In this document: positions 1,261 through 57,925 of the stretch, piece by piece
Numbering within the stretch: the stretch's first letter is position 1
How the letters are laid out: each line of letters begins with the position of its first letter
NCBI GenBank assembly: GCA_949751835.1
Contig: CATKHK010000058.1
Location: 186,001 to 250,000 of the forward strand
Direction: 5' to 3'
DNA from: Blepharisma japonicum
Lineage: Eukaryota; Ciliophora; Heterotrichea; Heterotrichida; Blepharismidae
Length of the DNA: 64,000 nt
Notes under the pieces: generated by a model
Told to the model about the DNA's origin: nothing
The model's database searches: none
The model's input: the letters and a program-made list of their open reading frames with translations, nothing else
Translations under genes and position numbers: made by a program

Positions 1261-4200
1261 ATGCTTACAGAATTTGCAGTCGGAGAAAAAGAAAACAATG
1301 ATTTTCACGAATTTTTATCTCATTCAGTTTTTACTAGTAAGTGAAAAGAGTATGTTTATGGCTTTTTAGGGCAAATTTTCAAGGAAAAATACAATCACAA
1401 AACGAAGTGGCAAGCTCAGCTATTTTTTGAAATTTTGGTCAACTTAATATTGATGCTTCAGCTTTCAGCGTTAACATGATATCCAAATATGAACCCGGCC
1501 GGCTGAGACTCATTTGTAGGGTTTTGACAAGGAATTGCATTTGCCAGCTATGATGAATTTTGCGTTGACTATGAAGCCATGGATTTTTGTTTTTTTGGGA
1601 CAGTTTCTCTGATCGGCGCTTGTTTAGCATCTTTTGCTGTCTTTGGACTTTATATTTATTTGGGTAAAGATATTCCAGTAATTGTTGCAATTTTACCTAG
1701 AAAGATAGCAATGCTACTAACATCAATATGCATAATTCCAAGCACGCTAATACTCACTCTTGTAATAAAATATTCTTCGGTAAATAAAAGTATTATTGAA
1801 GAATATTCAGGAGCAGTTTCCTCTGAAATTTGCAATTATGGGCCTGCTGGGATTGCTGCTGCAGTCTTTTGCCTTCTAATTTTGATTTTTATAAATTATT
1901 TCAGTGAATCTTTCTGCTGTGATATGAAGCACTCCCATTCAAAAACCAACATAAAAGCCAGATCATGTGCAGAAAATGACTTAAATAGAAGATGATATTA
2001 TATATTAACATGCATATTGTACATAATATTCGGCGGGTACTATGCAGTTTATTATCAAATTATTGGGCTTTGTTACACATTCTACCTTTATTACCGTTCC
2101 ATCATTTCAGCACAATATTATAACCCTATTGAAAATTCGATTCAAGGCTTCAAAATGGGTTCTATTGCAGGTACTTATTTAATTTTTTTATTTGGACAAA
2201 TACTTGATGATGCTTTAACCGTGGTTGTTTTTATGATCTTTATGCAGCCTGCTCTTACATTTATGACTGTGAAAACTGTATATAAAGTATATGGAAACTT
2301 AAAAAATTCATGCGAGATCCCAAAAAACCAGTTTGAATTTGAGAGGAAATTTAGACATTTGCTGACTGATGAAGGGCTTGATAATAAAAACGAGGTAATT
2401 TGTTTGTTTAAAGGTTACTGGAAACCTGGATCATTTTATAAAGACAAGCTATTTGTTATATGAGAGTTTAATTTTTGTTTTTTTATTTTGCATGATGAAA
2501 AACTTGCAAGAATAAAATTATCAAAAATAGCCTACGCGCAATCCACTTTTGAAGGAGATGTCCAAGAATGGAAACTATTTAACTGATTTATCAAACAAAA
2601 TAATGCAGCATCCCCAGATATCAGCTATTTAGATTATTTAAAAGAATTCAGTAGAATCAGAAGCCAAGATGAAGAACTTTGCTTTATTCTAACAGAACTT
2701 CAAGCTGAATTTTCATCTAGAACACCAAGAGTAGAAAAATTGATAAATTTAGTAAATAGGTCAGCAAATCATATAACGCATATAGGAGACGCATACAAAA
2801 GTTTAGCAGAAAAACACAAAAGTGTCGAGGTTCTTGAAATTTATGCGTCATTTTTAGAAAATATTATAAATAATCATGAAGAGTCCAATTTAATCATAAG
2901 AAAGAAAAACGGGATTAATTATTATAATGAGCGTACTGATATAAATAATCTTGAAAGCTATGGAAAAGAGCTTGCCACAATGCTAGTATCTCTATCAGAA
3001 AATACCTTCGGGAGTATTGTTTATTTAAACGAAAAAGCAGCGCAGTTCTTAAAAGCGCCTATAGGGAGTATTCTCGGATCAAAAATATTAAATTATATTC
3101 CTCAGCCTTATGATGCCATACATGAGAAACTTATGAGAGAGTTTGTATTTGAATGTAATTCAATAGAGCTTTTTTCTCACTCAAAGCTGTTTTTCCAAAA
3201 TCATGCAGGATTTCTTGTGGAATGTGATTTTCTTATCAAACTGACCGCGTTTCACAATTCTGCTTACTTTTTGATCTCATTTAAGCCAAAACCTACAGTT
3301 AGAGAACTTGCCTTAATTTCTGAAGAAAATATTGTCATTGCTCATACAGAAACGTTTCCTTATTATGTAGGCTCTGATGAAAAATGTTTAAAAAATAAGC
3401 GACTTTCAGACTTAATCCCGATTTTGAACATAAGTAATATGAAAGAGTTCGAGCCATGGAGGCTTCCTTTTAATGGCTCTGAGTTAGTTTTTGTACATAT
3501 AAAAAAAAGAATAACCTCTACAGTAGTCCATATGCTTGTGGTGATTCATGACTATAGAGAAATTGCAAACTGAAAAGAAGGTAGAGGCCAAGATCAAGTA
3601 AACCAAATTATCCCTTTACAAAAATTTGATAAAAATTCCATAGAAAACAGGCGAAAATCAATACAGCTCTTAAAAGTGAATTTTAATGAATTAAATTTTA
3701 CGCTAACAGCAAAATCTATAGACAAAATGGATGCAGAAATCTCGACTCACCAAGATTATGCTGATGAGCAATCCCTATTGAAATCCCATAACGAAATTGT
3801 GTCAAATTCTGACAATAACTCACGCGTTTCTTCTACATCAAAAAATGCAAAATATAAAGTCCCAAACTATGCTAAAAGCTTATTATTGCAATGTAAGAAG
3901 AAAATCAGGGTCCTCCAAATAGTTTTATTTATTGTGGTAAAAATTATGTAGATGTCATCAGTTATCGTGACTGTTGTTGCAATTATGGGGTATATGAAAA
4001 CAGATGTATCATATACTAGTAAATTAGGCAAGCTAAGTAGATTTAGCCAAATTTTATATGATATTAATTCTATGGCAGATTCAGCAAAAACTCTGCATAT
4101 GAGTATATTAGAAAAAGCCTCAGATGCTGAAATTTTGGGAAATAGTGAAAAATTGCAAAAAATAGCTGAAGATTTGATAGGTGTGCAAAATTCAATGCTA

Positions 4201-5490
4201 GGGGATTTTGACCAGTGAAAATATTGCGAGTGCACAGATATAATCACAAAAAATAAGGTCCCTATGTGGCATTTTAATGGGAATATTGCAGAAATTGAAT
4301 ATGAAAATTTGTATGACTCTGTCTCCGACCTCATTTCTAATGTAATTTCTATTCAGGCCCAAAAAATGATAATCGCAGTTTCTTCAAGCCAAGAGTTTTC
4401 TTCAAACTCAAAATTTCTATTTGTGAATGGCTTGGGAAATGCTTTCCACTACGCAAATCTCAGTATTTCAGGAATAGTTGATTGTGAAATTGATAGGGTA
4501 AAAAACACAGGCACAACAATTAACATACTTTTAATATTTGGCTTTTGCACATTGGGGTTGCTAATTTTAATCATTATAGGCTATATTATTCTTGTCTCAA
4601 GAAAGTATGATGAATTTTGAAATTATATTTTAAATAACGCCCAGTGGTTTCTATTCAAATTAAAATGCGAAGCACTGGACAGACTGGCAACTGCGCATGG
4701 AATTGATCAAAATATTAGCAGCGAAGCTGCTATAGACTCACAAAAATTTTTTAATTTGCCTAGACAAGTGAAAACAACTCTCCATCTGCAATATATATGA
4801 AGAATTATGCTGTTTTTCTTAATTGCAGCTTCTTATTATTTGCTTATTTATTGCTATTTGTACCCAACTTGTGAATCTTCAATGTTAAACCGCCCTAATC
4901 TTCTCAACAATTTTATTAACAGACGGCAGCTAATAGTCCGTCTTTCTATTATATCAAGAGAAATATATCATAAATATAATTATCAAGAAATTCCAGAAGT
5001 TTATGCATTTGAAGATCCTGATATTGCCCAAGATGAAATGGTGGGCTGACTAAAGTTTCAAGACAGAGAAATTCGTGAAGGAAAATATTTATCTTTAATA
5101 TCAGCTGAGCTTGAAACAAGAATGTATAAAAAAATAGACTCGCCTATAAAGTCATTAAGAGAAGGTGTCGAAGCCTCATCAATTGATATTATAAGTGATA
5201 TTGCAAGCATGATTTATTGAGTTTATACATCTGCTATTGATATTAATGAATTTTTAAACCAAATTGATATAATACAAGACGAAATTAGACAAGAATTTTT
5301 ATTAGCTGATAGAGACTCAATTGATATAATTAATAAGCAGTTAGATATGATTGTGAAGGTGACAGCTATTTATTCAGTGGCCGTTTGTATGTTATTTTTC
5401 TTTTATTATTTACCATACTTGAATTATCAAATCAAGCAGCTTAAAAGATTTTCAGTTTTGCCTTCAATTTTGCCAGTTGAGTTGGAGTAG
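1261..5490 (+). CDS. TM-A, TmcB-like PAS multi-spanning membrane protein
   Basis: 1399 aa. Exons 1261-3936, 3952-4341 and 4357-5490; introns GTAAAAATTATGTAG and GTAATTTCTATTCAG. Order of parts: eight hydrophobic helices (about residues 55-340) with a conserved loop after helix 4 (CDxxH, then NIKARS); a conserved IWEFNF segment and a charged helical region with a TPR-like block (YASFLENIINNHEES, about 527-541); PAS 1 starting near 570 (FGSIVYLNEKA at 583) and closing with LFFQNHAGFL and IKLTAFHN; a second PAS-like segment opening ALISEENIVIAHTE; a polar linker; helix 9 after KKKIRVLQ; a loop of about 150 aa; helices 10 and 11; a loop of about 150 aa ending LADRDSIDIINKQL; helix 12; and a short tail. 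At least 13 in-frame TGA codons sit where paralogues have Trp. No kinase, cyclase or channel signature is visible. The family is seen, function is unknown, and a sensory role is inference. It converges on TM-B with a 128-bp gap. Confidence 0.93.
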
Positions 5491-5618
5491 ATACTCGTTA
5501 AGAAATTCAAAAATTAAACTATTTGTGCATAAAAAATATTTTTAAGCATATTTTTTAATTTATTTTTTTATTATTTTACTATAAATATATAAAATAACGG
5601 TCCTGTTAATAATAAAAA

Positions 5619-8600
5619 TTAATCTGCTGCCAGTATCTCAAGAAAGTATGAAACCCAAGTAAGTTGCTTTATTTGATAATGGAGAAATGGCAAATAATAA
5701 ATAAAAAATAGTCCACAGAAAATTATTGAATAAATCGCAGTGGTAGCTATAATAACATTCAATTGGCGATCAATAGCATCATAGGAGTCTCCATCAGCTA
5801 GCTGGAATTCTATATCAATATTATTTTGCAATATTTGAAGAACAGCCACATATTGAAATACCCCAAGTGCTGGAAGAGTAGGGTTTGCAGCAATATAATA
5901 ATTATCATCAATTGAAATTTCAATAGCAGTCTCAGAACCATACTTCAATAGCGGATGTGTTAAATTGCTGCTTTCAAAAATTTTTTCTTTCAGCTCTTTT
6001 GACATGATTTTCATGAATTTCTTTTCACGAAGTTCTTTATTTTTATTTTTAAGGATTCTAACATCCAAATCTGTCACAGAATGAGAATTAGCAAATCCGT
6101 ATAATGATATAAAATTATTTTTGAAATACGGAGTGTACACATCTCTGGAAAAAATGCTAACCCTGGAAACTAAAGATCGTCTTAAATTAAAAATATTCAG
6201 TAATTTTGGCCTATTTATCATATAGCTTTGACAGTCGGGGTACAGATAAAAATACATCAAAAAATAGTATGACGCAGAAATAATGATAAATATAAGGATT
6301 TTTCAAGTAAAAGTTATTTCAATCCAGGTTCTAACTTTTCTTTTTGTTTTAATTCGGCCTGTGTTAACACTTTCCTCAGGACTTGCTTCGGTATTGTGAG
6401 CGTAAATAAGTCTTTCCATAGACTCAGTTTTTAATTTCATCATAGAGATTTGAAATTTTTTGATAAAATAATTCCAAAATTCATCGATTTTTCTCGCTGT
6501 GAGATAAATAAATAAAAGAATAATTCCTAGCAATATTGCAAGGATTATTATCCCTCACAGTATTAATGTATATATCAAATTTCCTATAGATTCAATTTGG
6601 CTAATTGCGCAGTCCTCTAAATCTAATATTGTGTGATTTAAAGAATCATAAGTTTGACCTAAACCATTAAGAATCAGGAATTTAGAATGCATTTTATAAG
6701 TTTTGTTATTATTCAGTGCATCGTTCATATTTCGAATCTATATATAATTTACATGAAGTAAAAAAATTTCTATAGCGTTATACATGTTTTCATATATTAC
6801 ATATGGCGATTTTTCATCAAAAGACCACATTGGGATCAAAGGATGAGTTACTACCTCATAAGCAGAGCAAAATTTTCAATGGTCAAAATCAGATAAAATG
6901 TTATTTTGAATGGTTTGGATTTCCTTCATAACATTTAAAAATATTACTTTTTGAGCTGAATAATCAAAATTAAAACTTTTTGCTTTGTCTATTGTTCTTG
7001 CAGAATCTGCAGTTAATCCAATATTATATAGCAGATCTCCCAGATTTCGAAAAATTATCATTGAAGAGGTCAAATTTACATCATTTACAATATTGGCCAT
7101 GATTGAGACCATTGTGACTATGACAGCTAGAGTCTATATATTTTTTACCACAATAAAGAGAACCCATTTAAGTATTTTTATCCTTTTCTTTGACCCCATA
7201 ATTAAATCTTTTGACTGTTCTGAATAATTTTTACTTAAAATGATTGATGATGAAGACTTGCTGGGTTGATCATCTGAAGATATATGATGCTTTGGAGAGT
7301 TATCATACGTATTAAGTAAGGCATCCTCAACATCTTTGAATGATATTTGGGATTTACTAGTTTTTTCTTTGGTATCTTTATTATATTCGCTTTCAAGAGT
7401 TCCATCTTCTATTTTCTCATATGTTATTCAAGACTTGGGATTCTCTTGTCGATTCTCTTGCTGATTACCATTCTCGAATTTTGTTATTTTTGAGTCATTA
7501 TCTATTATACATAAAATATTAAGCATTTCATTCTTTATTGTTTTTTTAGCGTATACAAAGCACATTTCTTTATTATTGATTATCGCTTTTTGTGATTTTT
7601 TTTCTTTTAAAGTATCGATATCAACTGAAGGGCATATATCAGCAAAATAGATATTTTTTACATATTTCGAAGGGCAGCCTAAGGAGTTAGAAAAAAACTC
7701 TGAATGGCCAAGAATTATACCTTCTTCAGAAATTAATGCAAATTGCCTTTGTGTATGTTTTTGTTGGAAGGATATAAGAAAATAGCTATTATTGTGAAAT
7801 GCAGTTAATCTTATAAGCATATTGCATTCTGTAAGAAATCCATATTGATTTTGGAAGAACAACTGATTATGAAAAGGGACTTCTACGCTTTCCGAATGAT
7901 TTATAAATTTTTTCATAAGCTTTTCATGAGTGTTACCGTATATATATGGAATAAAGCTGAAAATCGTGCTAGTATAAACTTCAATCATTGGCAACTTCAG
8001 TATTTCTGAGGCTTTTTCATTCATATAAATAATGTTTCCAAAACAATTATCCATGCAGGAAATCAACAATATGCCAAGCAGGTTTCCATATCTTTCTAAG
8101 AAATGATCTTTTCTATAAGAATAATCAACTCTGCTTGCTTTTTTCTTTATTTTATTTGCTTCTTTATGATCCTTTAATATCCTTTCCAAATAGCTTGCAT
8201 ATAAGTCAAAAGTTTCTGAATTTTTATATTTTTCTGAAGCCATATTATACCCTTCATTAACTCTATACAAGATTTTTGACGTTTTTGTTGACAAATCTAC
8301 TAGTGAACGCATTTTTGGAGCTCTAGATGCAAATTCAATTTGCAACTGTATGATTATATTGCACAATTCCTCATCGCGTTCTTTTAATATTCCAATATCT
8401 TGCAAATACTCTAAATATAAAACTTCAGGAAATTCGCATCCTTTTGTAGTCTTTAATCAGTTATAAGCCCTTCATTCTTGGACATCCCCTTCAAAGCTAT
8501 TTTCACATAAAGCTAATTTAGTGAGTTTTACTCGGGCAAGTCTTTCGTCATTTATAACAGAAATGCAGAAATTAAACTCTCATATCACAAATAGCTTGTC

Positions 8601-9773
8601 TCTTTTGAAATGAATCAATTTCCGATGCTTACTAAATAGCTTTAATATTTGATACTTATCATCTGGATTTGGATTAGTTAGTGAGGAACGATATTTCCTT
8701 TCAAAATCGAATTGATTTTCTGGATTATTTAAGTCATTTCCAAGAATTTTGTATCTTTTTGATGTAAAATTGATAAGAAAGAGAAGTAAAATTGGCTGCA
8801 AAATTAAAGAGAAAACAAGAATTATGAGTGAGTTATCTAATAATTTCCCAAAAATAAATATCAGTAACGTTAAAGTAATCGATCACATTTTACATGCTTG
8901 GATTGCGTTTTCAATGTAATTAAAATAAGGGAAAAATCTTGTGGCCTTGATTCCCAACAAAAATGCGCATATACAACAAATAATTTGATGGTAAACAGCT
9001 AAGCTTTTTCCAAAACATACATAAGAAATACACATAAATATAAAAAATAGCTGCCTTTGCAAATCCAAAGCTGCACATGCCCTTGCTTTAATATTTTTAT
9101 TATAGTTTGCATGATTTATATCACACGAAAAAATCTCATACAATATCACCAAAAACACCAATATAGGCAAGCAAAATGCTGAAATAATTATACCAAATAC
9201 ACCAAAATTAACGTCAGCAGTATTTATGTCATCTAATTCATCTACTGAATATGTACTAAAAATTGAATATTTTAAAACAATAAGGAAAATCATAATAGAT
9301 GGAATCAAAAAAAGTGTTGAAAGCATCTTAACAATTTTACTTATAAAAAGCACTAAAACATTGGTTGGATCTTTTCTAAGGTAAAAGTAAACCAAAAATA
9401 TCCCAAAAGAAATACAACAAATTCCTATTAAAAAAATCGTCCCATAGTAGCATATTTCTAGCAACTTAAATAATGCACAAGCATGATCATAATTAATAAT
9501 TCCTATCATTTTCCAGAATTCCTTATAAGAACTTCATTCTGAAATTTCTAAATGTGGATACCAAACAATAGAAGTTGCTTGAAGAGTGATCACTATATTT
9601 GCAACGATTTCATATTTCAGCTGCTGCTTGAATGATAATTTATCACTGTATTCTGCCTCAAAAATGTGCCCAAAGAATCCAAAGAAGTAATTTTTACTTG
9701 TAAAAAAATATTTGGAGAGATGATCTTGGTTTTGTAAGTACTCCTTTTCTATGTCAGCATTATGGAAGAACAT
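5619..9773 (-). CDS. TM-B, TmcB-like PAS multi-spanning membrane protein
   Basis: 1374 aa, first of the five-gene minus-strand block. Coding exons run 9773-7149 (875 codons), 7133-6753 (127) and 6737-5619 (373). The introns read GTAAAAAATATATAG and GTAAATTATATATAG on the coding strand. The start is fixed by an ATG (MFFHNADIEKEY, a block shared with TM-C) preceded directly by an in-frame TAA. PAS 1 carries FGNIIYMNEKA near residue 578; the PAS-like second segment opens ALISEEGIILGHSE. The linker after it is rich in Ser, Asp and Lys. The segment before the last helix reads LADGDSYDAIDRQL, with Gly for the usual Arg. In TM helix 7 a TGA (Trp) stands where paralogues have Gly after CKM, a possible GGA-to-TGA change. 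Closest to TM-C. Confidence 0.93.
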
Positions 9774-14562: not shown

Positions 14563-14989
14563 TTTTATAAGATATTACTAGAGAATAATTATTAACAAAT
14601 ATATATATGATCGTTGATATGCAATTATTGTGAGGATTGCTAAATATAGATTAATAAAGTAGAGAATCGTTTATATACATAAAAGAAATATCAAAATATA
14701 AGAAAGGAGATTATATTTTAGAATAAAAAAATTCACTTAATCAACTTTGTTTACTAATATATTAAGGAAAAATGAAAATTAATTCAACTCCTTTATCTGC
14801 AATTAGAAAGTACCAACATTAATTGCCAAAAATATCAGCAGAAAATGATAAATTACTTTTTCTTCCTTTTGTAGCTGAAATATCTAAATAAATACTCACA
14901 AAAATCTTAAATATAATATCAAAGAAAGGACTTTCGTATTTTAATTAAATTTGATTTATTTGTAATAAATAATTAAATTTAAAAAATTA
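14563..14989. other. AT-rich gap between TM-C and TM-D
   Basis: No open frame with a recognisable motif was seen. It holds the 3' flank of TM-D and the 5' flank of TM-C. Confidence 0.6.
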
Positions 14990-19169: not shown

Positions 19170-19334
19170 TTTATATAATTAATAATAAGCGAGTAAATAT
19201 GCTTTTATGTGGATTAGTTTAAGAATTGAAGAATATAAGAATATGTTGCCAAAAATATAATTAAAAGGGGTTCTTAACACGAAAGAGTAAAATGAATTTA
19301 ACTTAATAAGTAATTCTAAAAATTAATTATTTTT
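19170..19334. other. short gap between TM-D and TM-E
   Basis: 165 bp of AT-rich DNA with no coding signal; the shortest same-strand gap in the array. Whatever starts TM-D transcription must be compact or lie inside the 3' end of TM-E. Confidence 0.6.
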
Positions 19335-22300
19335 TTAATCAGTTCCTATGACTAATATCTCAAGTAGTGTAGCAATTCAATTGAGCTCTCTTATTTGATA
19401 GTTTAGAAGTGGCAAATAATACATGAAAAACAGCCCACAGAGGATAAAAGAGTAAACTACCGTAGTGATTATTATAATTTTCAGTTGTGAATTTATGATT
19501 TCATAGGAATCATGATAAGCTAGCCCAAATTCAATGTCAATATCGTTTTGGATTTCTTGTAAAACAGCTACATAGCGCAAAACTTCAATTGGAGGGACAT
19601 AATCTTGGTAAGAAATATTAATAGTGTCATATATAGACACATCAACAGCTGCCTCAGTTCCGAAATTTAGTAATGAAGTCGTCAAGTTGCTTCTTTCGAA
19701 TATTCTTTGCTGAAGCTCTTTGGACATCATTTTTATGAATTGCTCTTCTCGTAGTTCTTTATTTTTTTCTCTAAGAATTTTTGCACAAAGGTTCATCATA
19801 TAAGAAGAGTTAGGAAGATCGTATGATAATATAAACTTATCTATGAAATAAGGGGCATAAACATCCCTTGAAAAAATCCCAATCCTTGAAACTAGAGACC
19901 TTCTTATATTGAAATTATTCAGCAATTTTGGTCTATTAATCATATAATTTTCACATTCTGGGTATAGATGAAAATATAATATGGAATAATATGAAACAGA
20001 TATGATAATAAATAAAAGGATTCTTCAAACGAATTTAATTTCAATTCTAGTCCGTACCTTTCTGCTTAAATTAAGCATATTTCCATTTAAATGTTCTTCA
20101 TAATATTCAGTATGATGCACCAATAATAGTCTATCAGCTGCCTCACATTTTCATTTCTTAATTGCTATTTGTGAGTTATTTATAAAATAATTCCAAAACT
20201 CATCAATTTTTTTGACAGCTCGTCAAATAGTCAAAAGAATAACAATTACTAATACTGCAAGAGTATAAAATCCACACAGCAATAAAGAATATATCATACC
20301 TCCTATAGATTTCACCTGATTTACTGCACAGTTTTCTAACTCTAAAATAGTTTGGTTAAAGAAATCATATGTGTGGCCTAAACCATTTAGGACAAGAAAA
20401 TCAGTATGTGGCTTATAAGATCGAGTTTTATTTAATTGCTTTATCATGCTTGAAATCTAATTTATATTTACATGAAATAGAAAACTGTCAATTGTGTCAT
20501 ATATATTTTCGAATGCGATCTTTGGTAATTTTTCTTTAAATGATCATAATGGGATTAAAGGATTTGTTGTAACTTCAGATGCTGAGCAGAATTCCCAGCC
20601 CTTAAAATCAAATAAAATATTTTTTTGAAAAAATTGAATTTCTGACATTACTTTTAAAAATGACTCTTTTTGTGAAGAATAATCTAGCACATAACCAATT
20701 GACCTCTCAATTGTTCTAGCATAATCAGCTGATAAGCCAATATTATATAAAAGGTTGCCCAAATTATGGAAAATTACCATAGAAGAAGTCAAATTTACAT
20801 CATTCACAATATTTGCCATAATGGCGATCATGATTATTATTACAGTCAATGTCTAAATTTATATTACCACAAGAAATAATACTCATTGGACAATCCGAAT
20901 TTTTTTCTTTGAATCTAGAATTAATGCTTTTAAGAATGCTATATAAAAATTACTTGACTTTGCTGTATTTGATAAAGATTGCTTATAATCTCTCATATCA
21001 TTAAGAGATTTACTGAATAATAAATGCTGATCTTCATTCACTGAAAATAATGATTCTTGCATAACTTTAACTGATTTATGAACTCTTAAAATTTCGACTT
21101 TATTTTCTTGGCCATCCATAGTACCTTTATTGCAAACTGCAGATAGTTTTTCATTTATTTCTGAGTTTTCTAGCATATTTTTCTCCTGTATTTCTCTTAT
21201 TTTTTTAATCTCTAATCCATCATGAATTACTATTAGTATTCTAAGCACTTGAGATTTTATCGCTTTTTTAATATATAATAAAGCAAATATTTCATCATTT
21301 GATTTCATTATTAATGGCTCATTTAATTTCAAGCTTTTCATGTCAAGCTTAATTATATTAGAAATGTGAGTATTTTTAATGGTCTTTGAATTGTAGCCTA
21401 CATAATTAGAAAAAAATTCTGAGTGGTTTAAAACTATTCCATCTTTAGAAATCAAGGCAATCTGCCTCGTTGTAGGGGCTTGTTGAAACGATATAAGAAA
21501 ATAAGGATCATTATTAAACGCAGTTAGTTTTATAGTCAAGTTGCACTCAATCAGAAATCCATGCTGATTTTGAAAAAATAGCTCTTGATGGCAAGGGACT
21601 TCAACACCTTCTGAATTAAGAATGAAGTTTCTCATGAGCTTTTTATGGCGATTTCCATAAATCCAAGGAAAAAGATTAAAAATTGAGTTTCCACAAATGT
21701 CGATAACAGATGATTTTAATATTTCTGAAGCTTTTTTGTTGCTGTGGATAATAATTCCGAATGTACTCTCTATCCCAGAAATTAGCATTATCCCAACACT
21801 ATCTTCATATTTATCTTGAGTTTTATATTGCATCATAGAAAATTCCATTCCATTTTTCTTTTTCTCAATCATATTCACCTCCTTATCATTTGATAAGATA
21901 TTTTCTAAAAATCCATTATAAAGTTCAAATATTTCAGTACTTTTGTGCTTTTCTATTGCAATTTTATAACCTTTTTCAATATTATTTAGCTTTTTCGAAG
22001 CTTTGATACATAATTTAATAAGAGACTGCATTTTTGGAGCTTTAGATGCAAATTCAGATTGCAATTGTATAATTAAATAACATAAATTTTCGTCTTTTCT
22101 CTTTAGTTTTGCAAGTTCTTGCAAGTATTCTAAATAAATTATTTCAGAATATTCTTCATTTTTTTTGGTTTTGAGCCAATTATAAACTCTTCATTCTTGG
22201 ATATTCCCTTCAAAACTATTTTCATATGAAGCAACTTTTATTAATTTTATTCGAGCTAACCTTTCATCATTTATGATAGAAATGCAGAAATTAAATTCTC

Positions 22301-33434: not shown

Positions 33435-33463
33435 TATAATTAGATTAATATATTCAATAATAA

Positions 33464-34715: not shown

Positions 34716-37700
34716 ATGTCAACAGATTTCGAAGCAGAAGACAAAGAGGGTAATGATTTTCGTGGCTTTATGGCAGAGTCCTTTTTCTCAAGCAAATGAA
34801 AAGAGTATATCTATGGCTTTTTTGGGCATCTTTTCAAAGAAAAATATAGTCATAAGACTAAAATCAGGATGCAGGTATTTTATGAAGTATTGATCAGTAT
34901 TATTATCGTTTTACAACTTTCTCCACTAGCTTGATATCCAGAGATGGAAGCAACAGGCTGGAATTCTTATGTTTGGTTTTGGCAGGATATAGCTTATATA
35001 AGCTATGATGAAATTTGCGCTCATTATTCTGTTATGAATTTTTGCTTCTATGGCACAGTTTCACTAATCGGTGCTTGCTTTGGGTCATTTGCAATATTTT
35101 GGCTTTATATTTTCTTCGGTAAAAAAATCCCAAAATTTATCTCAGTTTTACCTAAAAAAATTGCAATGCTTATGACATCAGTCTGCATAATACCAAGCAC
35201 AATGATTTTTGTCCTAGTGATAAAATATTCCATAATTAGCAGGGCGACAATAGATGAATATAGCAATTCGCTCTCTTCTGATACTTATAATTTTGGGACT
35301 TATGGAGTAATTTTTGGGTTAATTTGCTTATCAGCATTGATTTTTGTAAATGTTTTTTGTGAAGCTTTTACCTGTGACATGAAGCATTCTCATTCAAAAA
35401 CTAATATAAAAGCAAGGTCATGTGCAGATTTTGATTTACAGAGAAGATGATTTTATGTAATATCATGCATTCTAAATGTGTTTTTAGGGACTGATAATGT
35501 GATTTTATTCCAATGCATTGGTTTTATTTACTCATTTTACCTTTATATTCGATGTATTTTAAATGTCCAATATTTTAATCCTATTGAAAATGCAATTCAA
35601 GCTTCCAAAATGGCGTCGATCTCAGCCCTTTACTTAACATTTCTCTTTGGACAGCTACTTAACGATGCCTTAGTAATTATAATTTTTACTTTATTTTTGC
35701 AACCCATGGCTATTTTTATGACTATTCGAATAGTCTATAAAGGCTACAAAAACCTAGAAAATTCAATTCATAACCCAAAAGATCAGTTTGAATTCGAGCG
35801 AAAATTTCGGCATTTATTAACTGATGAAGACCTCTCAGACAAAGATGAAGTCATAAATGTCTTTAAAAAATACTGAAAACAAGCTTTGTTCCACAAAGAC
35901 AAACTTTTCGTGATTTGGGAGTTTAATTTTTGCTTTTTTATCATGAAAGATGAAAGACTTGCCAGAATAAAAATTTCGAAAATTGCAAATGCAAAGTCTA
36001 CATTCGAAGGCGATGCCCAAGAATGGAGATTGTTTGACTGACTTATAAGGAAACAGCATTCTGTATTTCCTGATACAAGCTATTTAGAGTTTTTAAAAGA
36101 ATTCAGCAGAGTGAAAGGCCAAGACGAAGAGCTTTGCTTTATATTAGCTGAATTACATTCAGAATTTTCTTCTAGAGCCCCAAGAATTCAAAAATTGGTG
36201 AATTTAGTCAACAGGTCTGCAAATCACATAAATTTTGTTAACTATGGATATAAATCTCTTATCGAAAAGCACAAAAATATTGAAGCCTTAGAAATGTATG
36301 CTGGCTTTCTTGAAAATATCATTAATAATCATGACGAAGCAAGCATTGCAATTAGAAAGAAAAATGGAGTTACTGCTTATAGTCAACCAAACGGTAACAC
36401 TAATTTGGAAAACTATGGAAAAGAGCTCGCAACACTCCTTGTGTCTTGTGCTGATGATTCTTTTGGAACTATTGTTTATCTCAATGAAAAAGCATCACAG
36501 CTGCTTAAGGCGCCGATAGGAAGTATTCATGGCTCATCCATTTTGAACTATATTCCTCAGCCTTATGACACTTTGCATGAAAATTTGATTCGAAATTTTA
36601 TATTTGAATGCAATTCAACAGAAATTATTCCACACAGAAAATTATTTTTTCAAAATCATGCAGGATTTTTAGTAGAGACTCATTTTTTAATTAAATTGAC
36701 AGCATTTCATAACTGTGCTTATTTTTTGATATCTTTTCAGCCAAGAGACATTTCTAGGGAAATCGCTATTATATCTGAAGGAGGGATAATTATAGCTCAC
36801 ACAGAAGCCTTTCCTTATTACATTGGCTCTGAAGAAAAAAGTGTAAAAAATAAGCAACTTTCTGATCTAATCCCTATTTTAGAAATAAACCACCTTAAAG
36901 AGCAAGAGCCTTGGCTTATACCATTTAACAGTACAGAGCTCATGATTGTTCTGATTAAAAAACAAATTAAATCAAAAACCATTCGCTTGCTTGCAATAAT
37001 TCACGATAATGAAGGTATTCAAAACTGAAAAGAAGGAAAATCTCAAGACCAAATCAGCCTTTTGGCATCATTAAACCTAATAGAAGAAGCTGATGAAACA
37101 TCACCTATCACCAAAGCATTTTCAGATATAAAATTTCAACAATTAAATTTTACATTGACTGCGAAGACTTCTGACTTTCTAGAAGATGAAACAGCGCATT
37201 TCGAAAACTCAGTAGAAAAAGTAAAAAGAGACCAAGAAAGAAATTCTGATGGTAACTCAAGAGTCTCATCATCTAAAAACTTCAATTTTACAGTGCCGAA
37301 TTTTTCCAAAAAAATACTACTTCAGTCAAAAAGGAAAATAAGAGTTCTCCAGATAATTTTGTTTGTGGTGGTAAAAAATATGTAGATGTTTTCAGTAATA
37401 ATTACAGTTGCGGCAACTTTAGGGTATATGATATCTGATGTTTCATATACGAGCAGGCTAAAAGCACTTGTGAGATTTAACCAAGCTTTATATGATTTCA
37501 CTGCATTTGGAGATACTGCGAGATCTTTAAGCCTAGGCATTCTTAATAATGCATCAATATCTATAATCAATGAAGATATACACAATTTGCAAAACCTTAT
37601 AGAAAATATTACAGAAATCCAGAATGAATATTTTAATGATTTTCAAAAATGAAAACACTATGGAAGCTCTGGAAAGGCTGATAAGGACACTATTCCTTTA

Positions 37701-38927
37701 TGGTACTTCGATAGAGGAGTACCTGAGGTGGAGTATAAAAACATGTATAATATGATGTCTGAATTTATTCTAAACGTAAAAATCATATAGGGGCAAAAAA
37801 CATTGATGGCACTTACTGGAAGCCAAAACTATTTGCCTTCAATAAAATTTTTATATATAAATGGGCTTGGAAACGGCTTTCATTACCCTAATATGAGCCT
37901 GAATGGGCTAATTGGAAATGAAATAGATAGGGTAAAAAGCACTGGAAATACAATTAATGTCTTATTAATATTCGGCTTTTGCACACTGGGGGTGCTAGTT
38001 TTAGTGATTGTTGGATACATTGTACTTGTGTCAATGAAGCAAGATGAATTCTGAAATTATATTCTAAATAATGCTCAATGGTCTATGCTTAAGCTGAAAT
38101 GCCTTGCAATAGAAAGGCTGGCTAGTGTCCATGGAGTAGAAAGTATCATTGACTCCAATGTGGAAATTCAGAGGGCAGGTAATGTAACTAGGAAAGTAAA
38201 GATGACGATTTATTTGCAGTATATATGAAGACTTATGCTGTTTTTTTTGATTGCAGCTTCTTATTATTTGCTCATATATTGCTATCTATATCCTATCTGT
38301 GAAAAATCAATGTTAGATCGCCCCACTCTTTTAAACAATTTCATATCAAGGCGCTCATTGATAGCCCGTATCTCGACAATTACAAAAGAAATTTACTATA
38401 ATTATAACTACCAAGAAATTCCAGAGCTCTACCCTTTTAATAATCCCGAAATTGACCAAGATGAAATGATAGAACTCCTAAAGTTTAAAAACAAAGAAAT
38501 TCGAATTGAAAAGTACTCCATTTTAATGTCGAGCGATCTGAAAAAAAGAGTATTTGAGACTATTGATTCACAAATAACATTAAAAGAGGGGTCTGAAGCC
38601 TCTATTGTTGAATTTGTGAACGATATCGAGACATTGGCTTACTGAGTCCTCAGCTCAGTTATTGATATTAAGAAATTCACCAATCAAGTTTATATACTGC
38701 AAAATGAGGTTGCAGAAGAATTTGAGTTAGCTGATAGAGACTCAATTGATGTGATAAACAAACAGTTGGACACAATTGTAAATACTACAGTGATTTACTC
38801 AGTAGCTGTGTGCGCACTTTTTTTCTTGTATTATTTGCCTTACTTAAATTATCAAATCAAACAGCTGGAAAGATTTTCGGTTTTACCGTCAATTTTTCCT
38901 GTTGATTTGGATCATGAAAGATTTTAA
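34716..38927 (+). CDS. TM-H, TmcB-like PAS multi-spanning membrane protein
   Basis: 1393 aa, the closest relative of TM-G. Exons 34716-37370 (885 codons), 37386-37775 (130) and 37791-38927 (379); introns GTAAAAAATATGTAG and GTAAAAATCATATAG. The start MSTDFEAEDKEGNDF, the loop after helix 4 and the PAS region are nearly the same as in TM-G. Differences gather in the linker after PAS 2, in exon 2 (130 codons against 127) and in the first large loop. PAS 1 reads FGTIVYLNEKA and the second segment AIISEGGIIIAHTE. The pre-helix motif is LADRDSIDVINKQL and the tail ends DLDHERF. Because TM-A also has a 130-codon exon 2, the 127-codon exon of TM-G may reflect a deletion or gene conversion. Confidence 0.94.
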
Positions 38928-39749: not shown

Positions 39750-42700
39750 ATGAATACCGATTTAGACAATGAGCAAAAGGAAAGCACTGATTTTCATGAA
39801 TTTACTTCGCATGCAATCTTTTCTAATCCAATAAAAGAGTACCTTTATGGCTTCTTTGGACACATTTTTAAAACAAAATACAGTACCCACACACGATTCA
39901 GACACCAAGTGTTTTACGAAATAATTATCAATGTGATATTTACTCTCCAGCTCTCCACCTTATCCTGGCATCCGAGTTTAACCCCATCTGATTGAGACAC
40001 TATAAAGGATTTTGAAAATCATTTTCTTTTATAAGTTATGATGAAGTTTGTGCAAATTTTGGGATCACAGATTTTTGCTTCTATGGGACAATTTCTCTAA
40101 TAGGGGCTTGCTTGTGTTTTTTTGCAATTTTTGGATTTTTTATGTATATAGAAAAAGATATCCCAATGATACTTGCAATTTTGCCAAGAAAAATAGCTTT
40201 GCTGCTAACATCGGTCTGTATTATTCCTAGCACAATGATTTTAGCTATGATAATTAAATATTCCTTTGTAGGCAAAACAATAATTGAAGAATATTCAGGA
40301 AATTTTTCATCTGATACCTTTAATTATGGAATTTTAGGGATTATTATTGGAATTTTTTGCTTATTAGCTCTGATTTTTATAAATTTATTTTGTGAAGCTT
40401 TTTCTTGTGATATGAGGCACTCAAATTTCATGAAAAATCTAAAAGCAAGGTCTTGTGCTGAGTATGACTTGGCCAGACGTTGGTTTTATATGATAATGTG
40501 CATGCTTTATGTATATATTGGAAATAAAAATGCCTGGGTCTACCAAATCATTTTTTTCCTTTTTAGCTTATATCTATGCGTGCGTAGCATTCAATTTTTA
40601 CAATATTTCAATGCAATAGAAAATTGCATTCATGCTTGCAAAATGTCATCAGTTTCATGCACTTTATTAATCCTTATGTTTGGGGAGCTAGCTGATAATT
40701 CATTAATTATTGTTTGGCTTCATTTATTTTTGTTACCGTTTATAATTTATCTCACAATTAGAATAATTTGAAAAAATTATGAAAAAATGTCAAGTTCAGA
40801 AAGTTCAATTCTTACACAGTTTGATTTTGAAAGAAAATTTCGGAGTTTACTGATTAATGAAAACCTGGAAAACAATGAAAAAGTTATTGAGCTATTTAAA
40901 GCCTTTTGGTCATTGCCTGGCTTTCATAGAGACAAGCTGTTTGTGATATGAGAATTTAATTTTTGCTGTTTTATTATTAAAGATGAACGATTAGCAAGAA
41001 TAAAACTCACAAAAATTGGAGAGTCCAAATCGTCATTTGAAGGAGATATACAAGAATGGAGACTTTTTGACTGGCTTTTCAGGAAGCACAAATCATCTTT
41101 TATTGATCTAGACCATTTAGAATACCTGAAAGAATTCAGTAAAATTAAAAAATATGATGAGGAGCTCTGCTTAATTTTAACTGAGTTGCAAGCAGAATTC
41201 TCATCAAGAAATCCTAGGATTAATAAATTGGGTCATTTCGTGAATAGAATTGCAAAAAATATATTTTTTGTTAATAATGGGTATAAAGCTTTAACAGAAA
41301 AATATAAGAACATAGAAGCCTTCGAATATTATGCAACCTTTCTTGACGCAATAGCAAATAACCATGAGGAAGCTGATCTAATTATAAGGAAAAAAAATAA
41401 TATGAATTTTTTCAGCCAACGTAATAATGAAGAAAACCTTGAAAATTATGGAAAAGACCTTCCTATAATCCTAGCTTCATGCTCGAATGAATCTTTTGGG
41501 ACTATTGTATATACAAATGATAAGGCTTCCCAGCTTTTAATGTCATCTATGGGAAACATCATAGGCTCGTCAATATTGAATTTTATTCCTCAACCTTATA
41601 GCTCACGTCATGAAAAGTTAATGAAGGATTTTATTTTTAATTGTAATTCAATAGAAGTGTCGTCTCACGACTCATTATTCTTTTTACAAAATACTGGATA
41701 TCTTTTTGAATGCGATTTGTTGATAAAATTAACCGCATTTCATAATTGTGCTTATTTTATGATCTCATTTAAAGAAAGTTCTCTAAAACGGCAAATTGCC
41801 TTGATTTCTGAAGAAGGAACTATTTTATCTCATACCGAAAAATTCTCAAACTATTTCGAGTTAGAAGAGGAAAATTTAAAAGGAAAATTATTGTCAGATC
41901 TGATACCCATCTCTGATGTAACTGAAATGGACGAATCAAAACCGTTAAAATTCACTCAAAAAAGCAAAGAGTTATTCCTTACTCTCATTAGTAAAGAAAT
42001 AAAAACAAAGACAATGCATATCATTGCAATTATTGAAGATATAAACGAGATCTCAAAATGAAAAGAGGCAAAATCTCCAGCTTTTTCAAGAGAGTTTGGA
42101 TCAATTTATTCATATGATGATGAAAATGAAATAAAAATACAAAGGGAAAACTTTGAAGTCCAATTTCAGTCGATTGATTATTTAGTTTGCACTAAATCAC
42201 TTGAAAATCCTGACACTACAATTTTTACTCATTCTCATAATTCTCAGCCTGATTATGCACCAGAAGAAAAAAAATTCATGGAAAAAAAATCAGATTCGGA
42301 AAGCCGGTCGAAAAGTGAGACTTCACGCACACAAAATATGGCCAAAAAATTGCTGATGGACTCTAAAAGAAAAATAAGGGTGCTTCAGCTTGTTCTATTT
42401 GTAGTTGTAAGGAACATTTAGATGTCTTCTGTTATAATAACAGTCGTTGCTATTTTAATTTATATGAAAAGTGATGTGTCTTATACCAGCACATTAGGAT
42501 CTTTTAAGGACTTTGGCCAGCTTGTATATGATTTTGAGCTCTCTGCTGATCTTTCACTTAACATAGTGGCCGAGTTTTTATGAGGTGGAACAAAGGAAGA
42601 GTTAATTGCAGAGCTTGGAAGACTGCAAAACCTTATTGAAGATCTTGAACAAATTAAGGGATCTCTTTTCAAAGATTTTGACCAATGGACTTATTGCTCA

Positions 42701-43954
42701 TACTCTAAGGTTGTTAGAGAGCCTTCAATATTACTATGAAACTTTGAGCAGCAATTGCCACAAAGCAGTAAAGAAAATCTCTATGATACTGTAACAAGCT
42801 ATATTTACAATGTAATATATATTTAGGCGCAGAAGCTTATTGCTACTATAAACTTAGGAGAAGGATACTGACCCTATGCCAAATTTCTATATGTAAATGG
42901 CTTAGCAGGAATTTTTCATGATGCTGATAGGATAATGAATGGATTGGTAAACTGTGAAATTGAGAGGGTAAAGAGTACAGGAGTTAATATTGATATTCTT
43001 TTGATATGTGGATTCTGCACTCTTGGAGTTTTGGTCTTGATTATTATTGGCTATATTATGCTTGTGTCAAAAAAAGTTGACAAATTTTGAAATTTTACTT
43101 TAAATAATTCGCAATGGGCTATGTTTCAGTTAAAAGGCTGTGCAATGGACAGATTGACAACAACTCATGGACTAGAATGCAAATTTGAAGTCAACACAGA
43201 TAATCAAAGAAGCACTTATCGCACAAGAAAAGTAAAAGGAACGCTATATCTTCAATATATTTGGAGACTTATGTTCTTCTTTGCTATCGCTGCATCTTAT
43301 TATTTATTAATTTTCAACTATTTATACCCTATACTAGACCAAATGATGATTACTCGTCCTTCTTTACTGAATAATTTTATTATTCGAAGAGCTTTGCTCA
43401 TGAGATTATCCCTCTTTTCAAGGGACCGTAATGTGGATTTTACATATTATATGATCCCAGAATTTTATGGCTATTCCAAGCCAATCACAGAAGAACTAAT
43501 TATTATTGATCGCATAATAATATTATCTAAGCGTCTGGAGACCAAAAAATATGCAAAATTGTTCTCAGCCGAACTGAAGCAGAAAATTTTTAAGGAAAAT
43601 AATTTAGCTTATAAAATTATGGATTATGGATCAGAAGCCGCAATGCTATCTATGATGGGAGACATAGAAGACATTGGATATCCACAAGGCAGAAGCATAG
43701 AATATTTTATATGATTTATAGATAATGTAAAGGCTTTAGGAAATCAAATTAAGGATGAATTTTTATTGGCAGATAGAGACTCGATCAACGTTATAAATAA
43801 ACAGCTGGATACTATTATAAACACAACTATAATTTATTCAGTGGCTTTGTGTGTTCTTTTTTTCTTATACTACTTTCCTTATTTAAATCTTCAAATAAAG
43901 CAGCTTCAAAGATTTGCAGTTTTGCCTACCATCTTACCAAAAGATTTTGATTAA
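39750..43954 (+). CDS. TM-I, TmcB-like PAS membrane protein with a one-base frameshift
   Basis: Exons 39750-42406, 42422-42811 (130 codons) and 42827-43954 (376); introns GTAAGGAACATTTAG and GTAATATATATTTAG. Frame 3 is used from the ATG (MNTDLDNEQKESTDF) to about 39998; frame 2 thereafter. Alignment with TM-K at the conserved FWK-SFSFISYDE segment shows one base missing near 39998-40001. Replacing it gives 886 codons in exon 1, exactly as in TM-J, and a 1391-aa protein. As written, translation stops at TAA 40032 after 94 codons. The remaining 1297 codons have no other lesion, so the deletion is either very recent or a sequence error. PAS 1 reads FGTIVYTNDKA; second segment ALISEEGTILSHTE; pre-helix motif LADRDSINVINKQL. 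An in-frame upstream extension exists, but the ATG at 39750 matches the starts of TM-J and TM-K. Confidence 0.9.
39996..40003 (+). other. single-base deletion in TM-I
   Basis: TM-K has GATTCTTATAAAGG where TM-I has GACACTATAAAGG, one base shorter. Both flanks align to paralogues in different frames. The context is not a long homopolymer. Confidence 0.8.
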
Positions 43955-44576: not shown

Positions 44577-47500
44577 ATGTCTATTGATTTTGATAATGAA
44601 CAAAAGGAAACTACCGACTTCCATGAATTTACTTCTTATGCAATCTTTTCTAATCCAATAAAAGAGTACCTTTACAGCTTTTTTGGGCATATTTTTGAAA
44701 CAAAGTACAGCACTCATATAAGACTCAGAAGCCAAATACTTTACGAAATAATTATAAATGTGATATTTATCCTTCAGCTCTCTACATTATCTTGGCATCC
44801 AAGCTTGAAAGCATCTGGCTGGAATTCTTATGTAAGTTTTTGGAAATCATTTTCTTTTATAAGCTATGACGAGGTTTGCGAAAGTTTTGAAATAACAGAA
44901 TTTTGTTTTTATGGGACAGTTTCTTTAATAGGAACTTATTTAATTTTTTTTATTGTTTTTGGAATTTTTATGTATATAGAAAAAGAGGTCCCAAGGATAC
45001 TAGCGTTTTGCTCAAGAAAAATTGCATCGCTTCTTACATCTGTATCCGTTATTCCTAGTACGATGATTTTGAGCATGGTTATTAAATATTCCTTGATGGA
45101 AAAAGAAGTTATTGAAGAATATTCAAGGAAAGTGTCCTCTGAAATTTATAATTTTGGGGTTTCTGGGATAGTTATCGGAATCTTCTGTATACTGGTACTG
45201 ATTTTTATAAATTTATTTTGCGAAGCTTTTTCTTGTGATATGAGGCATGCAAATTTTAAGAAAAATCTAAAAGCAAGATCCTGCTCTGAACTTGACTTAA
45301 TAGAGCGCTGGTTTAATGTGATAATATGCATACTGTATGTATATATTGGAAACAAAAATGCGTGAATATTTCAATTCATTTTTTTCTTTTTTTGCTTTTA
45401 TTTATGTGTGCGTAGTATTCAGCTTTTACAATATTTTAATGTAATTGAAAACTGCATTCATGCTTCCAAGATGGCATCAGTGTCATGCACATTGCTAATT
45501 CTAATATTTGGAGAACTAGTTGATAATGCATTAATTATTGTTTTACTTCATCTGTTTGTTTTGCCTTTTGCTATTTATTTGGCAATTCGAATTATACGGA
45601 GAAATTATGAAAAACTGCCAGATATAGAGAAACCTATCATATCACAATTTGATTTTGAACAGAAATATAGGAGTTTTTTGACTAATAGTAATTTTGAAAA
45701 CAAAGTGCAGGTTATTGAAATATTTAAAGCATTATGGCAGCTACCTGGATTTTATAAAGATAAATTGTTTGTGATATGAGAATTTAACTACTGCTACTTC
45801 ATAATGAAAGATGAAAGGCTGGCAAGGATAAAACTAACAAAAATTGCAAATTCTAAATCATCGTTTGAAGGAGATATACAAGAATGAAGACTATTTAATT
45901 GGCTTTTCAGAAAGCATAAATCATCATTTATTGATATAGACCATTTAGAATACTTAAAAGATTTTAGTAAAATTAAAAAACATGACGAAGAACTTTGCAT
46001 GATTTTAACAGAACTGCAGGCTGAATTCTCATCAAGATTTCCTAGAGTGAATAAACTAGCACACTTAGTAAGCCGCACAGCTAAAAATATTTATTTCCTG
46101 AGTGATGGATATAATAGTTTGATAGAAAAATATAAAAATTCTGAAGCTTTTGAATACTATGCGACCTTTCTTGATGCGATAGTAAATAATCATGAGGAAG
46201 CTGAGTTTATTATTAAGAAAAAAAACAGCATAAGTTTTTTTAGCCAACGCAATTATGAAAGAAACCTTGAAAATTATGGCAAAGACCTTCCAACAATCCT
46301 CGCTTCATGCTCTAATGTATCATTCGGGACTATTGTATATATCAATGATAAGGCTTCTCAGCTTTTAATGTCATCTATGGGAAATATCATAGGCTCATCA
46401 ATATTTAGTGTCATTCCTCAACCTTATCGATCACGCCATGAAAAGTTAATGAAGGATTTTATTTTTAATTGCAATTCTACAGAAATTGTATCTCATGACT
46501 CATTATTTTTCTTGCAAACTACCGGATATCTTTTTGAATGCGATTTATTGATAAAACTAACTGCATTTCATAACTGCGCTTATTTTTTACTATCATTTAA
46601 AGAAAGTTCTATAAAGAGGCAAATTGCCTTGATATCTGAAGAAGGGATAATTCTATCTCATACAGAAAATTTTTCAAAATATTTTGACTTAGAAGGGAAA
46701 GATGTCAAAGGTAGCATGCTATCTGGCATAATTCCTATTTCTGATTTATCCCAGATGAAAGAATTTGAACCACTTACAATCAAGCTAAATGATCGTGAAA
46801 TAATTATCACTCACATAACTAAAACTATAAAAACAAGAACTATCCATATGATTGCTATAATTGGCGATATAAGTGAAATCCAGAAATGAAAAGAAGGCAA
46901 ACCTCAAGTTTTTGAAAGGCCAATTGAATCAGTTTACTCAGATGAAGATGAAAATGTAGGAACAGTAAAAGAAAATCAAGAAATGGCCTTCAATTCTACA
47001 GATTATTTAGTACCAACAAAATCTTATGAAAACCCAGATACAACGATCTTTACATGTCCTCATGATAGTCAACAGGCAGATCACAATTTTGAGGTGAAAA
47101 CTTTTATGGAAAAAAAATCCGACTCAGAAAGTAGATCAAGAGGCGGAGAAGGGCATACGCAGCACAAAGCAAAAAAGCTACTTATGGAGTCTAAAAATAA
47201 AATTAGGATACTGCAGCTTATATTATTTTTGGTGGTAATAAATATTTAGATGTCTTCTGTCATAATAACAGACGTTGCCATATTAGTTTATATGAAAATC
47301 GATGTGTCTTATACAAGCACATTAGGCTCCTTTCAAGATTTTGGCAGACTTGTATATGACTTTGAGCTCTCTGCTGATCTCTCAATGACCATTATTGGAG
47401 TGTATATATATGGGGGAACTAAGGAACAACTAGATCCAGAGCTCAAAAAATTGAAAAGCCTTATTGACGATTTAGAACAAATTAAGGGATCTCTTTTCAA

Positions 47501-48782
47501 AGATTTTGACCAATGAAATTATTGTCCTTACTCCAAAGCAGTTAGAGAGCATTCAATATTACTATGAAACTTTGAGCAAAAATTTCCACAAAGCAAAAAA
47601 GAAAATCTCTATGATACTGTAACAAGCTATATTTACAATGTAATATATATTTAGGCCAAAAATTTAATTTCGGCTATAAATGCAGGCGAAGGCTACTGAC
47701 CTTTTTCTAAATTTTTATATGTAAACGGGCTTGGTGGAATTTTTTATGATGCTGATAGGATAATGAAAGGGCTGGTAGACTGCGAAATTGAAAGGGTAAA
47801 GAGTACAGGAGTTAATATTGATATTCTTTTGATATGTGGATTCTGTACTCTTGGAGTTTTGGTCTTGATTATTATTGGCTATATTATGCTTGTGTCAAAA
47901 AAAGTCGACGAATTTTGAAATTTTACTTTAAATAGTTCACAATGGGCTATGCTTCAGCTAAAATGTTGCGCGGTGGACAGATTGACAACAACTCATGGAC
48001 TAGAATGCAAATTAGAAACGAGTACAGATCCTCAAAGAAAGGCCTCTTACTCAAGAAAAGTGAAAGGTACGCTTCACCTACAATATATTTGGAGACTTAT
48101 GCTCTTCTTTGCTATCGCTGCATCTTATTATTTATTGATTTTCAATTATCTATACCCTATATTAGACGAAATGATGATTACTCGTCCTTCTTTACTCAAT
48201 AATTATATCATCAGAAGAGCTTTATTAATGAGATTATCGATTTTTTCAAGAGATCGCGTCGTTGATTTTACCTATTACCTCATTCCTGAATTCTACGATT
48301 ATGGACAATCACTGTCAGAGGAAGCGAATATTATCGAATATATTAACACCCTAACAGTAAAATTGCGAAACAGAAAATACTCAGAGCTGCTCTCAGAAGA
48401 ACTAAAACAAAAAATGTATGAGCAAAATGAGTTGGCCGATAAAATAGTGGATTATGGATCTGCCTCAGCAATACAGACAATGATTGGTGATATTGAAAAT
48501 ATTGGGTATATAAAAACTGGTACCGTACAGTTTTATTTAGACTTTGTTGATAAAATTAAAGTATTAGCAAATGGCATTAATGATGAATTTGCGCTTGCAG
48601 ATAGAGATTCATTTAACATCATCAACAGCCAATTGGAAAATATTGTTAACACAACTATTATATATTCTTTAGCATTATGCATGCTATTTTTCTTTTATTA
48701 TTTTCCATATTTTAACTTTCAAATAATGCAGCTACAAAGGTTTGCAGTTTTACCAGCTATTTTGCCCAAAGATTTCGATTAA
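44577..48782 (+). CDS. TM-J, TmcB-like PAS multi-spanning membrane protein
   Basis: 1391 aa. Exons 44577-47234 (886 codons), 47250-47639 (130) and 47655-48782 (376); introns GTAATAAATATTTAG and GTAATATATATTTAG, the second identical to that of TM-I. Starts MSIDFDNEQKETTDF. This is the intact reference for the I/J/K group. PAS 1 reads FGTIVYINDKA and the second segment ALISEEGIILSHTE. The linker carries NPDTTIFT and a Ser-rich acidic-basic stretch (KKSDSESRSRG) shared with TM-I and TM-K, a candidate phosphorylation region by composition only. The pre-helix motif is LADRDSFNIINSQL. The tail FAVLPAILPKDFD differs from the PVDLD ending of the A/G/H group. Confidence 0.94.
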
Positions 48783-53693: not shown

Positions 53694-53752
53694 ATTAAAA
53701 TGATTATAATAAAACTAAATATTTAGGCAATATATTATATATATTATGAATA

Positions 53753-56700: not shown

Positions 56701-57925
56701 TTATTATAGCAATGCAAAAATTGAACTCCCAAATAATAAGAAGCTTGTCTTTCTTGAAATTTGAGTCTTTTGCACATTTATTGAATAAATTAAGCACTGA
56801 AATCTTGTCTTCAATATTTTTATCCATCAGTAAATGCCTTATTTTCTTTTCAAACTCAAATTGATCTTTTGGCACATTTTGGTTTTCTTTTAATTTATTG
56901 TAATTTCTTCTGACAATATAAATGGAAAATAAAATCATCATTGGCTGCATAAATAAATTGAAAACAACAATAATTAGTGCATTGTTCATTATTTGACCGA
57001 ATATAAAAATAGCCAAAGTGCTTACAATAGAAGCTATCTGGCTGGCTTGAATAAAATTTTGTATGATGTTATAATATTGAAGATAAAAAAGGCACTTGAT
57101 AAATAAATATGCTGAAAAAATAAGCAAAATTACCTGATGAATCAATATGTTATTTGCCCCAAAAGTAACATATGAAATGCTCATGAATATATGGAAGCTA
57201 CGAATTTCAAGGTCTAATTGGGCAGAAGACCGTGACTTTATGTTTTTCTTACCATTAGTGTGCTTTATGTCACATCTAAATGCTTCTGAAAACAAAAGGA
57301 AAGGAAGCAAAGCAATTAGGGTAAATAGAGATAAGATAAATCCTAAGGTTCCATAATTCAAGCTGCTAGGTGATGTATTTCCATCATATTCATCTACAGA
57401 ATTTGCTCTAATAAGTGAATATTTCATTATCATCAGTGACAAATTTCAGCTAGGGATTAAACCCAGTGTTGAAAGGAAAATGGCAATTTTCCTTGGGAAA
57501 ATTGTTACAATTTTAGGAGTTTCCTTTCCAAAGTAGATGAAAAGCCAAAATATGAAGAATGACAGAAGGCAAGCACCAACAAGAGATATTGTACCATAGA
57601 AACAGAAGTTCATAACCCCAAAGCTAGCACAAACTTGATCATAGCTAACAACTCCAATACTTTGCCAAAAAGTTATGCATGAATCCCACCCTTCAATATT
57701 TATGCTTGGGTACCAGGTCAAAGATGTGAGTTGCATCGCTATAATAAGGTTTGTCAGAATTTCATAAATGACTTGCTCTTTAAGCTTTGTTTTTGTGCTA
57801 TATTCTGCCTGAAAAAGATCCCCTAAAACTCTATATATATTTTCTTTGATTTTGCTAGCGAAGAGGGATTTTTCTAGGAAATCTCCATCCTCAATTTCGT
57901 CTAAATTTTTTAGATTTTTTTTCAT
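53753..57925 (-). CDS. TM-L, divergent TmcB-like PAS multi-spanning membrane protein
   Basis: 1380 aa. Exons 57925-55301 (875 codons), 55285-54905 (127) and 54889-53753 (379); introns GTAAGTTATAGTTAG and GTAAATTTTATGCAG, the second stop-free in frame. The frame is open further upstream but the first ATG is at 57925 (MKKNLKNLDEIEDGDF). It is the outlier: PAS 1 reads FGKVVYINEKA and is followed by the variant KPYCAWHEKRMKTFF; the second segment opens ALMTRDGTVTAHSL, losing the SEE/G consensus; the pre-helix motif is IAENDSKDIINSEI; the tail is ILQMDAGDPTA. The loop after helix 4 keeps CDIKH and NIKSRS. The WEFNF Trp is TGG. Confidence 0.93.

Follow-up and report, generated by a model that had tools for sequence, protein, structure and literature searches.

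The TmcB family (PF25474), named after 'tiny macrocysts', is the family to which we assign a tandem gene array of the heterotrich ciliate Blepharisma japonicum, part of which lies in the 64,000-nucleotide stretch analysed here (contig CATKHK010000058.1 of assembly GCA_949751835.1, forward-strand positions 186,001 to 250,000; hereafter, the window). Like members of that family, the array proteins carry a TPR_TmcB region over the curated cut-off, then a PAS domain, together with an N-terminus of multiple transmembrane (TM) helices; the assignment is made by Pfam region. Their first PAS domain (PAS-A) shares with heme-PAS domains of the FixL/EcDOS (DosP) type—cluster 3 of PMC10468136—both the PAS fold and the Falpha histidine, which stands in an I-P-x-P-Y/F-x3-H motif, but the array proteins are diverged, belong to a membrane receptor context, have no detected kinase or phosphodiesterase and mostly carry a further histidine (His640 in the first window gene, g1). 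In FG214 (PDB 10jx), according to PMC13060918, the heme ligands are His156 and His175, 19 residues apart; unlike the array proteins, FG214 is a soluble helix-turn-helix transcription factor and can use Met172 as an alternative ligand. The C-terminal half of the array proteins may, judging by its predicted fold, resemble the bacterial four-helix sensor modules of NasR (NIT), McpN, NarQ, PcaY and Tsr, but its four-helix modules gave no Pfam or PDB sequence match at E ≤ 0.1 and no chemoreceptor signalling domain was found.

The array bears on how heterotrich ciliates sense oxygen, redox state or chemical cues at the level of molecules. No published account of a ciliate TmcB array, a ciliate heme-PAS or the histidine pattern described below was found by title or start of abstract, in a search whose coverage left out most subscription journals. 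Blepharisma has rquA genes, which are tied to low-oxygen life, although rhodoquinone was not detected in its extracts (PMC7813818). We read the locus as an array of TmcB-family membrane receptors whose PAS-A is most likely a heme-binding domain; the array would have expanded by local duplication and been maintained by purifying selection. To this reading, taken whole, we give an even chance.

A TmcB-family array and its relatives

Window positions 1261-57925 are filled by twelve family genes, eleven of them intact and encoding 1372-1399 amino acids (aa) after splicing. Each of the twelve has two introns, whose positions are shared across the set. The original prediction of twelve such genes in a 56.7-kb array thus stands as to gene number and introns but not as to intactness, one copy (g9) being frameshifted, and the array, though real, is only part of a larger one. 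Within contig C58 (308,841 bases; the window is C58:186001-250000), the window and its neighbouring stretches place the full array at G000:C58:99603-243925, where family genes, including one remnant, occupy 123,133 of 144,323 bases (85%).

This larger array holds 29 near-full-length genes and a degraded, 5'-truncated remnant with several frame breaks (C58:114065-115422). Open models were obtained for 28 of the 29 copies, 26 automatically and two by inspection: C58_110821m, which reads open with a 16-nt intron 1, and C58_132978p, which reads open with one extra 15-nt intron in its fast-evolving linker, were both ruled out as broken genes. The extra intron (C58:135502-135516, L012) is perhaps a recent gain. 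The remnant contains a palindromic repeat of ~56 bp resembling a miniature inverted-repeat transposable element (23-nt arms, 10-nt loop; G000:C58:114481-114536, L010:8481-8536), found at 11 other places in the genome at 81-95% identity.

Chance is excluded as the source of the family pattern, because TPR_TmcB is matched at E ≤ 0.1 by every one of the 34 exon-1 proteins examined, and ten of the twelve window genes pass its curated cut-off of 27 bits in the genome search (best candidates scored; g5 and g6 lie outside those listed). Scores of 39.7 bits for g1 and 43.5 bits for g7 bear out the TmcB-like label first proposed. Across the 45.19 Mb searched (224 contigs), the profile gave at least 146 matches from the 150 candidates scored out of 174; six contigs carry 93 of them (C58 24, C38 26, C57 16, C50 11, C40 8 and C56 8). 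A stretch of C38 (190-290 kb) contains 14 intact family genes, a fifteenth, truncated at the edge of that stretch, being excluded, with the same two intron sites as the C58 array, to which they are only 19-23.5% identical.

Introns of the 40 automatically called intact genes on these two contigs are GT..AG in 80 of 80 cases (76 of 15 nt, four of 16 nt), and nine are stop-less. Stop-less, in-frame 15-nt introns occur in g1, g6, g7, g11 and g12, where a gene finder could read through them as five extra residues. UGA is read as Trp, and telomere repeats (CCCTAACA) gave 168 overlapping matches of three units against none for the reversed control, those listed sitting at contig ends wherever the length of the contig is known. 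UGA as Trp, 15-16-nt introns and CCCTAACA telomeres all match the Blepharisma description in PMC9942806.

Features of the window are as follows.

1261..5490, + strand: g1, receptor gene of TmcB type, 1399 aa after splicing; intron 1 occupies 3937-3951, and intron 2 (15 nt) is stop-less
2968..3297, + strand: g1 PAS-A, FixL/DosP-like, residues ~570-679 (AlphaFold2 (AF2) model, PDB profile, alignment columns)
3121-3123, + strand: g1 codon of the predicted heme ligand His621 (alignment columns)
3178-3180, + strand: g1 codon of the possible distal His640 (alignment columns)
3301..3546, + strand: g1 PAS-B, residues ~681-762 (structure model only)
3952..5490, + strand: g1 C-terminal half, two predicted TM-anchored four-helix modules (AF2, mean predicted local distance difference test score 81.3)
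5619..9773, - strand: g2, 1374 aa
10414..14562, - strand: g3, 1372 aa
14990..19169, - strand: g4, 1382 aa; intron 2 of 16 nt
19335..23486, - strand: g5, 1373 aa
23805..27986, - strand: g6, 1383 aa; PAS-A over the Pfam PAS_9 cut-off
29244..33434, + strand: g7, 1386 aa; intron 1 stop-less
34716..38927, + strand: g8, 1393 aa; 81% identical to g7
39750..43954, + strand: g9, copy with a frameshift (1 nt absent near 40,000) that keeps its two introns and the two PAS-A histidines; either a pseudogene or an assembly error
44577..48782, + strand: g10, 1391 aa
49482..53693, + strand: g11, 1393 aa
53753..57925, - strand: g12, the array's last gene, 1380 aa; His621 present, Cys at 640

To the right of the array (window 58420-62710) lie a RabGAP-TBC gene, an inosine-uridine nucleoside hydrolase, RRP36 and a further protein that matches nothing in Pfam. 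No tRNA or Rfam genes were found within the window.

Predicted architecture and the PAS-A histidines

Eight TM helices are predicted to come first, followed by the TmcB/TPR region, a pair of PAS domains, a linker predicted to be disordered and, last, two four-helix modules anchored by TM helices; membrane topology is assigned from hydropathy and charge. The AF2 model of g1 contains two PAS folds at residues ~570-770, where they had been anticipated. Profile support in Pfam is divided: PAS_9 (cut-off 27 bits) is passed by g6 at 29.7 bits and matched at E ≤ 0.1 by 20 of 34 members, whereas g1 lacks a PAS_9 match at E ≤ 0.5 and reaches only 15.5 bits against PF00989, below the cut-off of 22.6. 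A further PAS_9 match over the cut-off (33.2 bits) lies at G000:C105:72363-72671 and adjoins no TPR_TmcB place among the matches listed. Searched against PDB sequences, PAS-B (26 of 34 rows given) yielded no PAS match and one non-PAS match (E 0.77), and the N-terminal eight-TM domain (24 of 34 rows given) none at E ≤ 1. No kinase, cyclase, GGDEF or methyl-accepting signalling domain was matched in Pfam (E ≤ 0.1) by any of 34 exon-1 sequences or of 36 C-terminal ones, only six of the latter including exon 2, and PADLOC gave no match on g1.

PAS-A looks to be descended from a FixL/DosP-type heme-PAS. The low-copy paralog L002 has FixL as its best PDB match (E 1.2e-8), with FixL/EcDOS (DosP)-type proteins ranked first. 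L002, for which this likeness was seen, L003 and L004 (two on C54, one on C5) appear well suited to an initial test of heme binding; L002 and L004 also have a long acidic Ser/Glu-rich stretch after the PAS domain. In g1, His621 aligns at the Falpha position with the second histidine of FixL PEPYRHEHDGYL, the proximal heme ligand. This residue is kept in all 29 array genes (26 of 26, plus three inspected), in none of the 14 C38 genes examined and in 31 of 48 loci sampled from 96 places outside C58 and C38 (eight the best genome-search matches, 40 picked by hand), so that 60 of 91 family genes examined retain it. Two histidine-less controls, A4 (eight rows, and so the weaker control) and the PAS region of L043, gave no PAS match; one of eight A4 members matched the general PAS model of NCBIfam.

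A second histidine, His640, lies 19 residues after His621 in 27 of the 29 array genes, the exceptions having Cys (g12) or Asn (C58_132978p). It occurs in five of the 31 other loci that bear His621 (L003, L004, L052 and the C40 loci L063 and L069) and in one of the 17 histidine-less loci; six of the 31 have histidine at 641 instead (L002, L044, L045, L048, L072 and L074). Outside the array proline is commonest at 640 (12 of 31 and 14 of 17, respectively). An array-only profile matched FG214 along stretches of equal length (query 25-81 and chain 50-106, as judged from the end points of the match), and if that match is ungapped the two query histidines would fall on chain positions 87 and 106, that is on residues 156 and 175, numbering that assumes three extra residues before residue 73 in the 145-residue chain.

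Several results weigh against a heme-binding PAS-A. The array-only profile (21 rows, without g12) ranks CLOCK PAS-A, which has no Falpha histidine, first (E 0.0036) and FixL second (0.0077), and the g2 PAS alone matches only CLOCK (E 0.57). Among 26 single histidine-bearing array PAS-A sequences, one matches the FixL model at E ≤ 0.1 and nine a general PAS model, while PpsR, NR(II) and a MASE3 kinase are matched by single members; the Foldseek list is headed by HIF-2a and PpsR. Across 26 array genes PAS-A shows no variation at eleven columns, His621 and ten others. The histidine-less PAS-A of C38 is no less conserved than that of C58 (mean identity 56% vs 50%), and so has a constrained role without the histidine.

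The CLOCK ranking, the conserved PAS-A of histidine-less arrays and the ten other invariant columns would suit the same receptors with a heme-free PAS-A, docking proteins or binding a small metabolite, in which His621 is a structural leftover of a FixL-like ancestor; we put this at somewhat under an even chance. Against it, the histidine is missing in only three places on the rooted tree (one 27-tip clade, one 3-tip clade and one single tip), and persists in all but one of the 50 tips in the clade to which the array belongs; in the array itself a second histidine, at the FG214 spacing, is nearly fixed. From these sequence comparisons, heme binding by PAS-A is a prediction about evenly balanced between right and wrong.

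In our reading each protein consists of an N-terminal eight-TM domain, a cytosolic TmcB helical region, two PAS domains (a heme-binding or heme-derived pair) and a disordered linker, followed by two further TM pairs, each of which would carry an extracellular four-helix sensor module. Heme would most likely be held through the Falpha histidine, His621 in g1, with His640 perhaps as second ligand in most copies, and the receptor would integrate cues from outside the cell with the O2, NO, CO or redox state inside it. As no enzyme domain was found, the signal would presumably be handed to a partner by the TmcB/TPR-like region or by the N-terminal TM domain.

Local duplication, divergence and selection

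The large TM-anchored loops, which in the predicted fold may form a four-helix bundle between TM helices, look like sensor modules, in keeping with the receptor-like character first suggested. The family may be a repertoire for extracellular ligands (mating, prey or chemical cues, for example), its specificity residing in the large loops and PAS merely relaying, which we consider less likely than not. A run of arginines in loop 2 resembles the P-box of nitrate sensors, but this likeness lacked sequence support and was dropped.

Mean nonsynonymous divergence (dN) relative to the whole protein, over all 325 C58 pairs, is 0.76 in the TmcB/helical region, 0.78 in TM12, 0.83 in PAS-A, 0.94 in the N-terminal TM domain, 0.98 in the TM10-cytosolic segment, 1.10 in PAS-B, 1.19 and 1.18 in the loops and 2.27 in the linker, with synonymous divergence (dS) near saturation for distant pairs. 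PAS-A is therefore among the better conserved parts and the cytosolic linker is the most variable, so the earlier expectation that PAS cores and large loops vary most was wrong for the PAS cores and half right for the loops, which exceed the whole protein but not the linker.

Growth of the array by local duplication, as originally proposed, is supported: among the 26 intact genes, neighbours are 52.6% identical on average, compared with 43.2% after shuffling of the gene order (none of 20,000 shuffles reached the observed value), and 14 of the 26 have the adjacent intact gene as their closest paralog. On an 88-sequence tree of the 450-775 region, in which several deep nodes are poorly supported and the root was placed by us on L002-L004, a single 28-tip clade (support 0.965) unites the 26 C58 genes with two C40 loci, one C40 copy being nested within it. 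Whole-protein dN/dS (Nei-Gojobori) is 0.18-0.28 in the 14 closest pairs (dS 0.31-1.03), which show purifying selection; per segment, none of the ten closest pairs reached 1, the maximum being 0.92 in the linker (by a crude method, one PAS-A value being undefined). Neutral or dosage amplification, that is tandem duplication without functional divergence, would fit the likeness of adjoining copies and the turnover seen in one remnant and one frameshifted copy, but is improbable given a median identity of 41% within the array, 28 of 29 copies open and dN/dS of ~0.25 in the closest pairs, which point to old, divergent copies that have been kept.

Significance for Blepharisma and the TmcB family

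More tentatively, and with the balance of probability against it, Blepharisma may possess dozens of chromosomal membrane heme-PAS receptors, comparable in a eukaryote to the O2/redox sensor sets of bacteria. The predicted heme chemistry would vary between arrays—C58 mostly bis-histidine (621/640), several members of the C50/C49/C165 clade with His at 641, and the C38 and C57 groups histidine-less and so heme-free—and each receptor would be fused to paired sensor modules on the extracellular side. If PAS-A does bind heme, this would be an unusually large candidate set of gas/redox receptors for a eukaryote, the natural histidine-less arrays would serve as built-in controls and the TmcB family would become accessible to biochemistry. 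A family with at least 146 matches and an array of 144 kb is a striking sensory expansion even if no heme is bound.
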